Part shown: in pieces, positions 39,133-49,522 of the stretch
Numbering within the stretch: the stretch's first letter is position 1
Layout: each line of letters begins with the position of its first letter
Source: Auricularia sp. M13
Lineage: Eukaryota > Basidiomycota > Agaricomycetes > Auriculariales > Auriculariaceae
Direction: 5' to 3'
Assembly: GCA_037042915.1 (NCBI GenBank)
Contig: CM073193.1
Coordinates: 2,232,001 to 2,296,000 of the forward strand
DNA length: 64,000 nucleotides
Position numbers and translations under genes: made by a program
Notes under the pieces: model-generated
The model's database searches: none
Told to the model about the DNA's origin: nothing
Seen by the model: only the letters and a program-made list of their open reading frames with translations

Positions 39133-41279
39133 TCACAGCCAGCGGGCGCTGCGATAAAGATGGCGGCGGGCGTGCTGCTGTCGCTGGTGCTGCAGCTCGC
39201 GCAGGGAGACGTGGCCGCTGTGGGCTTTGCTGCGCTGCAGTTCACGCAGGGAGACGTGCCCCGCGTGCGGCGCGGTCGAGCGCCGGAGGACGGCGCTGGT
39301 TTCCTTGGGCGTCTCAGGCTCGTCTGCGCACTCATCCTCATCCTCGTCTTCATCCTCGTCGTCTTCCGCGGAGCAGTCATCTTCAGCCGGATCTGTGCCA
39401 GTGGGCTCTGGGGTGCTGGGTGGCTCGCCTTCGTCGTCATCGGAGCAGTCGTCCACCTCGGTCTCAGTGGGCTCGGGAATGTCCGACGTGACTGTCGGCG
39501 TGCTCGGTTCCTCTGTTGGCTCGGGAACGCTAGTTGGAGGGGGTGTTTCCGGAGAGGTCTCTGAGGCTGGAGGCTAGAATCATGGGCGATGAGTGGGCAG
39601 ACCAATGCGCAGAGCTCCTTGCGCACCTCGGTTGGACTGGGGCCTTCAGTCTCCGTTGGCGTCGGCTCAGACTGAGATTCAGTCGGCGAGGGCTCTGGCT
39701 GCGGCTCGGGAGTCTCAGGTTCAGATGGCGCAGGGTCTTCCCCGCCGTTCTGGTACACGGCCATGCGCAGCCCGCCGCCGCACCACTGACCCGGATCGCC
39801 CTCACACCGCTGGTTGCACCCGCCCTCGCCCGCAATCCGCCCGGCATCCAGCGAGCTCCCGCAGCTGCACTCGTTCCCGAACGCCACGCCGGCGTACGCG
39901 AAGCCGCGCTCGGCGCAGTGCGCGGCGCACAGCGCGGGCGTCATGCCGCCGGGCGAGTAGTGGTCCTCGCCCAGCACACGCGCCTCCCACGCGTCACGTG
40001 CGCACCCGAGCGCGGTCCACCCCGGCACGGGCGTCAGGTAGGACTGCGGCGGGAGAATGTCCGTCGTGTCGGTGCATTCGGACGGCGGCGAGGCGCGCGC
40101 GGGCCCGGCTTGTACGGTTATGCAGCCTGGCAGCTTCTCCAGCCCTGAATACGTTGGGTCAAACTCTCTGGAGCGCGCCGGTTTGCCACGTACATTCGCC
40201 TTGGGCTCCTGCGCTCTCGGGAACGCGCGGAGGAACAGTGCAGTCGAGCATGTCGTCAGCGGATCGCAGCTGGAGGACTGGGCAGTCTGTCATGAGTCTG
40301 CGCATAATTCGAGCGGTCAGCATGGCGAGGAAACGATCCATAGGCCAGCTTCGATATTTACCCTGTGTCAGAGTTGCACGAGTCGAGAGCCTGCTGGAGC
40401 ACATCGACGTCCCAGCCGTTCAGGAAATCTCCATGGTGCCCGTAACCCGTGCTGCGTACGTATATTAGGCCCATAGATCGAGTATTCAATAATAATGCTC
40501 ACGGATCTCCGTTGCTCAGGACGAAAGGCTGCGTTGCGCCTGGCGGTGTCCACCACATATCTTTGAATGCCATCGTGTCCCAGATGACTTCGACAAGTAT
40601 GGTCACGAGGCGTACTGGGTGGGTGTCAGGGCAATTTCCATCCTCAACCTGGTCGGGGTAGGCCATGTGCGATTTGTGGTCGTCCGAATCGAGGTTCACG
40701 CCGTCCCAGCACCTGCTGCGAGTGAGATTCGGACGTAGGGACCTGGATGGACTGGGCTCACGATGGGAAAAGCACCTCTGTGCGCACGCCATTCGGGCAC
40801 GGCTTGGCTGGCAACTCCTGGTGATGCGTTGCCTCTCCGGAGTAATCGAGGCAAGTGTGCTTGATCGCCTTCTGCTCCTTGGAGTTCTCGTCGAACGAGC
40901 GGAGGAAGGGATCACCAGCCAACATACGAAACCCCTGACGAAAGATGAGATATTTCATTCAGTAAGGCTTTATAGACATAGGAATGACTCACTGCTGGGA
41001 AAGCCTTGACCTTGGGAGGCTCTGGCGGAGGCGTTGGAGACCAGACATAGCCCGTGCGCTGAATGTAGTATACGGCTGCTCCTCCCAGCTGATTCACCTG
41101 TGTAATCGAAAGTGAGAAAGGTCAGAGGTCAAATACAGTCTTGGCGCACTCGATGGACGCTGCCGTTTTGCGCTTGGTACCAAAGCGTTGGTGTCCAGTA
41201 GTTCGAGAGATCTGCGCTCGCCTCGCACGTCGTGCACGTCGATTTACGAGTAGACTCGTAGGTTTGGTTGAAGTCGAAT
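39133..41279 (-). CDS. Secreted DUF1996-WSC protein, 3' part (5' exons lie beyond a LINE insertion)
   Basis: Extracellular protein with a DUF1996 domain followed by a WSC cysteine domain. Exon 41279-41150 gives [19 protein letters not shown] then [15 protein letters not shown]. The next exon (from 41097) has [17 protein letters not shown], then [14 protein letters not shown], then [20 protein letters not shown] (DUF1996 core), [16 protein letters not shown] and [16 protein letters not shown] (about 40015-39750) has [29 protein letters not shown] and [20 protein letters not shown]. The tail is Pro/Glu/Thr-rich, then acidic (DEDEDEDE), and ends with two [14 protein letters not shown] units. The signal peptide and first DUF1996 motif are encoded at 49522-49309, separated by the 7.8-kb retrotransposon. 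Normal expression would need an intron of about 8 kb, so the allele may be dead. WSC domains bind carbohydrate in the cell wall. Confidence 0.8.
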
Positions 41280-41318
41280 CTGCATCATATGAGCACCTTT
41301 CGCAAGCAGCTAGCCGAA

Positions 41319-41336
41319 CACGTACGCATTCTAATG
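41319..41336. repeat. Target-site duplication, 3' side of the LINE
   Basis: CACGTACGCATTCTAATG, identical to 49170-49187. It lies directly against the poly(A)/poly(T) end of the element. Confidence 0.95.
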
Positions 41337-41365
41337 TTTTTTTTTTTTTTTTTTTTTTTTTTTTT
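41337..41365 (-). repeat. Poly(A) tail of the LINE (29 T on plus strand)
   Basis: An uninterrupted run of 29 T. On the minus strand it is the A-tail that ends the retrotransposon 3' UTR, directly after a roughly 200-bp 3' UTR and before the target-site duplication. An uninterrupted tail points to a young insertion. Confidence 0.95.
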
Positions 41366-41564
41366 GGTGCCCTGCAACACAACCTGCCGCATGAAATGCG
41401 TGTTGCGCTGAGTCAAGCCTTCCCAGGGGAAGGCAAGTAGAGTCCCTTTACAGAGACTCCGGCGAGGTTCGCAGTGTTAGACCGCGATATGTACATCTAG
41501 GGCACCTCCCGGGGAAATGCGTTACGCACGCCTCAAATTAAGGCAGTGTGGGACTCCAATGCTA

Positions 41565-48552: not shown

Positions 48553-49169
48553 GAGGCGGCAGAAAGTGGATGGGATGAAGAGGGTCGTGGCACGCGCGCG
48601 CCATGTTCGTGTCTTATGAATGTCTGGAGACAAAGGGGGTGGACCGGTGCCACCCGACCACCCGTATTGCAGTCGCGGATAATGCAACAAAGTGAAATAT
48701 TCTGCTCGTCGCCGACAACGGCGACTGGATAGGGCTTCTGGTCTCTGCCTGTGGGGTCGTCTTCGCGCGCTCGTCTGCGCGGCTCGGTCGCGAGTCCCGG
48801 CACAACAAGGGTGTCGCTATTGCAGTTGCCGTTCACAAATGTCTCGTGGTCATGTACGTTCAACGCTGTTCTCACTGGAGCCAGTGGACACTTCCAGTCC
48901 TGGGACGTGTATAGATCACTACAATAATTTGCTAAGCCTATGGTCCTGTCTACAATTGAGGACGGACTCATTGGCGACGGTCGGGCCACAGCCGGCTCGT
49001 CGCTGAACGTACTGCCCGAACCGCGAGGCAGACGCTGTACCGGGGCTGGAATCAGTCTTTCCAGCACCTCGTGCGAGTCAGCACTAGGCGAGCTCGTCGA
49101 TGACGGTACCCCCATGGGCGGCGTACGGTGGCACAAAGTTACCACCGTCATGGGAAAAGGAAAAGAAGC

Positions 49170-49187
49170 CACGTACGCATTCTAATG
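49170..49187. repeat. Target-site duplication, 5' side of the LINE
   Basis: Identical to 41319-41336 over 18 bases. It marks the 5' end of the element, which then starts GGCTTCTTTTCC on the minus strand. Confidence 0.95.
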
Positions 49188-49308
49188 GACAGATCCCATC
49201 GTGTTCAGCAGCGCGGAGAGGAACATATGGCACATACTCCTCCTACGATCTATAGGTGTAGCTGTGAGCCAGAATTACGCCCAGGATCGAAGCGGCCGCT
49301 GTTTCTAC

Positions 49309-49522
49309 CTGGTGCAAGTGTCCCGAAACTTTGCCCGGGTTCACAATCCTAAGCCGCACAAGCGCCCGAGTTCAGCAGCCACCGACGACGAGGAAGTGAA
49401 GATGCGCACGGGTCTGCACGCTGTGTCGTCAACACCTGGCCGCAGTTCATGCGAAAGTAAGCCGCTGCGGGCGACGCAAAAAGGCCTGCAGCGGCGAGAA
49501 GAACAGAAGGCAAAGCCACCAT
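49309..49522 (-). pseudogene. Stranded 5' exons of the DUF1996-WSC gene (signal peptide and first DUF1996 motif)
   Basis: Exon 1 (49522 to 49410) encodes MVALPSVLLAAAGLFASPAA, a clear signal peptide, followed by YFRMNCGQVLTTQRADP. A 61-bp intron (49409-49349) joins in phase to exon 2 (49348-49309), which encodes IVNPGKVSGHLHQ, the diagnostic N-terminal motif of DUF1996. The next donor is GTAGAA at 49308. The rest of the gene resumes only at 41279, after the LINE. A 12-nt candidate micro-exon for IVGG lies at 49238-49249 but does not restore phase with the downstream exon. These exons complete the DUF1996 domain missing from the 3' part. Whether splicing across the element still occurs is unknown. 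Confidence 0.82.

Follow-up and report, generated by a model that had tools for sequence, protein, structure and literature searches.

The window, a 64,000-nt stretch of DNA from Auricularia sp. M13, carries on its minus strand a 12-exon gene (49522 to 39133) that encodes a DUF1996 domain and a WSC domain. Joining the exons gives 1,941 nt, or 646 aa with no inner stop, and every intron of the gene model, whose splice sites were chosen by hand, has GT-AG ends. Ten of the introns are only 49 to 64 nt long, and the other one bears a LINE. Upstream of the gene, two related, adjoining ORFs (50048 to 51016 and 51366 to 52214) share an LPxDVLRLIFES start and appear F-box-like by eye.

The host gene and its protein

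All exons are read on the minus strand. Exon 1 (49410 to 49522) holds the ATG at 49522 and a hydrophobic N-terminus, MVALPSVLLAAAGLFASPAAA, which resembles a signal peptide as judged by eye, and it finishes with DP. Exon 2 (49309 to 49348) carries IVNPGKVSGHLHQ, with HLHQ ending at 49309, and the 12 nt of exon 3 (49238 to 49249) code for IVGG. Intron 3 (49182 to 49237) is a complete 56-nt intron running from GTATGT to CATTAG. Exon 4 is a predicted 5-nt microexon, AATGC, that supplies NA in the series IVGG-NA-F. One copy stands upstream of the LINE (49177 to 49181) and another downstream (41326 to 41330), and the coding sequence is identical whichever of them serves as exon 4. What is left of intron 4 after the downstream copy is again a complete intron (41280 to 41325; 46 nt, GTACGT to GCAG), which leads to exon 5 (41150 to 41279) and its initial FDF.

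Exons 6 (40993 to 41097), 7 (40762 to 40934) and 8 (40503 to 40712) follow, and exon 9 (40362 to 40451) contains the tail signature HGDFLNGW. The end of exon 10 (40194 to 40297) splits a Trp codon, exon 11 (39627 to 40144) encodes the WSC domain, and exon 12 (39133 to 39573) encodes a Pro/Thr/acidic tail with a stop that ends at 39133. A frameshift near 40200 in the first gene model was dropped, since the intron at 40193 to 40145 puts the frame right; two paralogs, L019 and L009, likewise have an intron splitting the Trp codon at this point. Direct joining of exon 3 to exon 5 was also rejected because it is out of frame, and the 5-nt exon restores the frame.

The joined protein matches the Pfam profile for DUF1996 (PF09362) over positions 1 to 237 of 237 with 294.5 bits (cut-off 27) and that for WSC (PF01822) with 61.5 bits (cut-off 27.8). 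The piece upstream of the LINE covers DUF1996 positions 1 to 21 and scores 25.3 bits, which by itself falls just short of that cut-off, and the downstream piece covers positions 22 to 237 with 253.7 bits, leaving neither gap nor overlap. A DNA search of the 52-Mb, 14-contig assembly with the downstream part (39133 to 41279; 2,147 bases) as query revealed no near-identical second copy, the sole other match being 64 bases at 84% identity within a paralog. Because the Pfam match is contiguous, the 646-codon frame is open over 12 exons, the target-site duplication (TSD) around the LINE is perfect and a near-identical second copy of 39133 to 41279 was not found, the two flanking pieces are supported as belonging to one gene.

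The original prediction had proposed a DUF1996-WSC gene split by a LINE, with its ATG at 49522, its upstream piece ending at 49309, exon 5 starting at 41279 and its stop at 39133. These coordinates stand, as does the assignment of both sides to the same DUF1996 domain, and the exons now read across the LINE with the addition of exon 3, the 5-nt exon and the TSD, all of which that account had lacked. An intact copy elsewhere that might explain both fragments was searched for and none was found; the nine other DUF1996 genes found are 42 to 59% identical to this one over aligned residues.

The protein resembles the DUF1996 proteins Vlp1-3 of Beauveria bassiana, described in PMC4738358, in its DPIxxP head, its HxDxxxGW tail and the spacing between conserved residues. 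The DUF1996 spacing formula of that paper, written as a regular expression, matches the window protein at residue 37, and its head part fails once NA is removed. The 14 proteins as presented there are without WSC or a signal peptide, whereas the window protein has a WSC domain and, by eye, a signal-peptide-like N-terminus. A search of residues 1 to 293 for relatives with solved structures gave 0 matches at E values up to 1.

The LINE and its target-site duplication

The LINE body (41366 to 49169, minus strand) is 7,804 bp long and lies between the two gene pieces in the orientation of the gene itself, as had been predicted. Its 5' end is fixed by other genomic copies, since all four non-self copies among the matches listed begin at the same base (query base 1). 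In the assembly, at least five matches to the 5' end and at least eight to the 3' end were obtained, self included. ORF1 (47005 to 48552, minus strand) encodes 515 aa with no inner stop and matched no Pfam family. ORF2 (41565 to 46628, minus strand) likewise has no inner stop and encodes 1,687 aa when counted from the ATG before the endonuclease, a putative start. As in LINEs, a single ORF, here ORF2, holds both an endonuclease (PF03372; 25.1 bits, barely over the cut-off of 24.5) and a reverse transcriptase (PF00078; 109.8 bits, cut-off 29.6), and it also contains a zf-RVT domain (PF13966; 27.6 bits, barely over the cut-off of 27.5). The LINE class is further indicated by a poly(A) tail of A29 (41337 to 41365, minus strand) and by TSDs of variable length, which in four copies measure 18, 16, 15 and 13 bp. 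As expected of a LINE, long terminal repeats are lacking: within 36000 to 52000 the two element ends share no direct repeat of at least 20 bases.

A sibling copy on C2 is 86% identical to this LINE. Third codon positions take 137 of the 175 substitutions that separate the two in ORF1 and 557 of 711 in ORF2 from base 2542 on. Because the substitutions fall mainly on third codon positions, ORF1 and ORF2 are evidently real coding frames. The sibling itself has four single-base gaps plus longer ones, and its reading frames are interrupted. The frame of host exon 4 continues without a stop through the entire LINE (49181 to 41565; 2,534 LINE codons). Over LINE bases 1 to 617, substitutions relative to the sibling are spread evenly over the codon positions (33, 38 and 36), and the proposal that the open frame across this 5' region is a real coding frame was dropped on the basis of that test.

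Some relatives of the LINE are incomplete or rearranged. On C8, the 5' and 3' ends of one relative (L029 and L033; C8:508064 to C8:461288, minus strand) lie 46.8 kb apart and share a common TSD, CTCTGCTCATATA, and a match to the endonuclease region (C8:496479-495498) stands between them. These pieces (G000) probably belong to a single LINE that nested insertions have drawn apart. Among LINEs, loss of the 5' end is usual, and survival of that end by itself is not. A match on C10 (L027; C10:3079598-3079802) covers the first 204 of the 570 LINE 5' bases searched at 96% identity, and neither the inner 2,001 nor the 3' 601 LINE bases used as queries had a match on C10.

The TSD CATTAGAATGCGTACGTG is found on the minus strand at 49187 to 49170 and again at 41336 to 41319, with 18 of 18 positions identical. 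These are the only two exact matches in the 52-Mb assembly, and 100 shuffles of the window contained no occurrence of the 18-mer with up to 2 mismatches. Its layout, CATTAG|AATGC|GTACGTG, comprises a 3' splice site, the whole 5-nt exon and the 5' splice site GTACGT, and the microexon with both its splice sites therefore stands on each side of the LINE. Extra bases that resemble untemplated additions are found between the TSD and the LINE 5' end in other copies (GGG in L026, GA in L028 and GGG in L029). Because other copies carry such bases, the last G of the TSD could also be untemplated, and the TSD length would then be given as 17 to 18 bp.

Three other LINE copies have readable TSDs of their own, 13 to 16 bp long: GAGATAAACATTACGG and CGAAGCGCGTTTTAA, both on C2, and the C8 duplication given above, which was read by eye. 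They sit at unrelated sequences, and a target preference of the LINE for splice sites was dropped on this ground. Because no target sequence is common to the TSDs of the other copies, the hit on a splice region appears to be a coincidence.

The 5-nt exon among DUF1996 paralogs

A microexon has been defined as an exon of at most 30 nt that is included in mRNA (PMC8042270). The exon considered here is 5 nt long with GT-AG introns on both sides, as read from genomic sequence. The NA residues are encoded by AATGC together with the first base of exon 5, and the exon is preceded by CATTAG and followed by GTACGT. When the flanks of the LINE are joined in silico to restore the empty site, AATGC is flanked by a 56-nt and a 46-nt intron.

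A search of the assembly for DUF1996 gave 22 matches, which were grouped by hand into 10 genes including the window gene. Five of these genes have a 5-nt exon: AATGC in the window gene, AACGG in L003, AATGG in L019, AACGC in L009 and AATGG in L023. In all five, the exon is in phase 0 before and phase 2 after and codes for NA or NG, and each region holds exactly one fitting 5-nt exon. When the five regions were shuffled by single bases with their ends fixed, an NA- or NG-coding 5-nt exon arose in 0 to 4 of 5,000 shuffles per region, and any AG|5|GT exon arose in 673 to 805 of 5,000; the limits of these regions were set after the sequences had been inspected. Among the genes without the 5-nt exon, L007 has one intron at this place, L008 is uninterrupted, and L004, L006 and L013 read straight through the microexon point. 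A FastTree tree, unrooted and built on a query-anchored alignment, parts the five microexon genes from the five others with a local support of 0.921; some of its inner branches are weak (0.053).

Predicted fate and meaning of the interrupted allele

The explanation considered probable is that a recent insertion of a full-length LINE hit the DUF1996-WSC gene in the region of its 5-nt microexon, duplicated that exon, and left an allele that is most likely null or strongly reduced. The duplicated 18 bp, which would have arisen by target-primed integration, the LINE biology behind TSDs, consist of the microexon AATGC with the 3' splice site before it and the 5' splice site after it. The insertion is judged recent because the TSD is perfect, the LINE ORFs are open and the host frame is intact. 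Each side of the LINE now has a complete short intron beside it, the 56-nt one ending at the upstream microexon and the 46-nt one starting at the downstream microexon. Both would probably be removed first, since fungal splicing mostly recognises short introns; intron definition is described as the main mode of splicing in fungi in PMC2397502.

Once the short introns were gone, the LINE would be flanked by two orphan sites, a donor and an acceptor, the latter without a close branch-point motif. The downstream AATGC acceptor is preceded by A29, and the nearest YTNAY is 61 nt off with two AGs between. Within the gene, YTNAY lies 10 to 31 nt from the AG in nine of 11 short introns. The branch-point rule is rough: introns 1 and 3, which have no YTNAY in the usual range, both carry CTGCTGAAC in its place, and in introns 2 and 7 a single AG separates the motif from the acceptor.

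The number of AATGC copies in the message determines the predicted product, which is 646 aa with one copy, 66 aa with none and 102 aa with two. If the LINE were retained, or if the transcript ended inside it, the protein would be lost. If the LINE were removed between the orphan sites, the two microexons would be joined and the frame would shift, giving the 102-aa product. The correct 646 aa would require a 7.9-kb splice that skips one microexon copy and ignores one short intron. With the microexon duplicated, taking out the LINE between the copies shifts the frame, and on this ground the sequence argues more for knockout or strong reduction than for survival. Although the gene is divided and probably inactive, all its coding pieces remain. 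The intact host frame and splice sites, which fit a young insertion or continued function alike, weigh against this explanation to some extent.

That splicing instead removes the LINE within a single, very long intron and leaves a working gene appears unlikely. Two routes would yield the same 646-aa protein, either from the upstream microexon to exon 5 over 7,897 nt or from exon 3 to the downstream microexon over 7,907 nt. The former also counts against loss of function, as it keeps the proper donor GTACGT together with the original branch-like motif and acceptor, and the host frame is undecayed. An intron of this size would nevertheless be exceptional next to the ten others of the gene model and next to the tens to a few hundred nt listed for fungal introns in a table of PMC2397502. 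Moreover, the LINE holds 15 donor-like GTRNGT matches and eight matches to a branch motif plus AG, as raw counts set against no shuffle control, and the 46-nt downstream intron would compete for the same acceptor. A further step, quite unlikely on present evidence, is that the gene withstands the LINE because of its duplicated microexon, with either copy serving as exon 4, the 7.9-kb intron removed, a working protein made and a host-driven LINE transcript released by splicing. If this were true, the LINE would have made an introner-like intron whose TSD supplies a whole spare exon.

Introner-like splicing, in which the upstream TSD would supply the donor and the downstream TSD the acceptor (7,846 nt), is very improbable. 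The TSD ends do contain the two splice sites, and the introners described in PMC9860276 are able to draw theirs from TSDs. Against such an event stand the A29 before the acceptor, which has no close branch motif, and the length of 7,846 nt compared with 49 to 64 nt for the other introns. Even if it occurred, the second AATGC would be included, with the junction AATGCAATGC and a frameshift, and the product would still be null, which makes this outcome a sub-case of the favoured explanation.

It is barely conceivable that the host promoter and exons 1 to 4 drive the LINE as a chimera in which intron 4 is retained and the frame runs for 2,593 codons, including the ORF2 domains. The frame is indeed open from 49522 to 41565 when introns 1 to 3 are spliced, but agreement of frame is a 1-in-3 event, LINE bases 1 to 617 do not behave as a selected coding frame, and it is doubtful that a retained transcript of this length would be translated. 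An assembly artefact or two unrelated genes would hardly account for a perfect TSD, an A tail, element ends that match other copies, and contiguous Pfam positions 1 to 21 and 22 to 237.

The preferred explanation, a recent LINE insertion that most likely disables the gene, shares with ordinary intragenic LINE insertions a full-length element, an A tail, a TSD and a host gene interrupted in the same orientation. It differs in that the duplicated target is a whole microexon with both splice sites, altering exon count and intron length. Introners, as described in PMC9860276, are alike in that TSD copies at the element ends hold a 5' and a 3' splice site able to excise the element, and some earlier characterised families are DNA-transposon-like with TSDs of 3 to 9 bp (PMC9860276). 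In contrast, the present case is one 7.8-kb LINE with both ORFs open, known from its genomic sequence, and excising it would insert 5 nt into the message and break the frame. Introners are further characterised by removal from mRNA and by recurring as near-identical introns across many genes; the copies of this LINE obtained here were few, by the lower-bound counts given above.

Very small exons between two short introns are on record in fungi, among them exons as short as 6 bp in P450 genes of Phanerochaete (PMC1184071) and a microexon in Trichoderma Xlr2 (PMC11121469). Unlike these, the exon here has 5 nt, which is not a multiple of 3, is common to five paralogs, and has been doubled by a retrotransposon. 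Fungal exons of 6 bp (PMC1184071) and the use of TSD sequence as splice sites (PMC9860276) are each documented already. A literature search joining microexon and target site duplication found no paper, and among the matches listed by a looser search just one paper carried a microexon term, and it lacked any TSD term. The literature searched held no case of a TSD that copies a complete exon along with its two splice sites, yet such an event would follow from known mechanisms.

The locus shows that target-site duplication can copy an entire exon together with its splice sites. It offers a natural experiment on the handling of very small exons and long introns in fungi, in which two 5-nt exons, identical in sequence and in splice sites, lie 7.8 kb apart, one with only its own upstream intron and the other with only its downstream intron. 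The four paralogs L003, L019, L009 and L023 add further DUF1996 genes whose 5-nt exon gene finders may miss, and any gene finder that does not allow 5-nt exons would misread this DUF1996 family, in which five of the 10 genes found have one.
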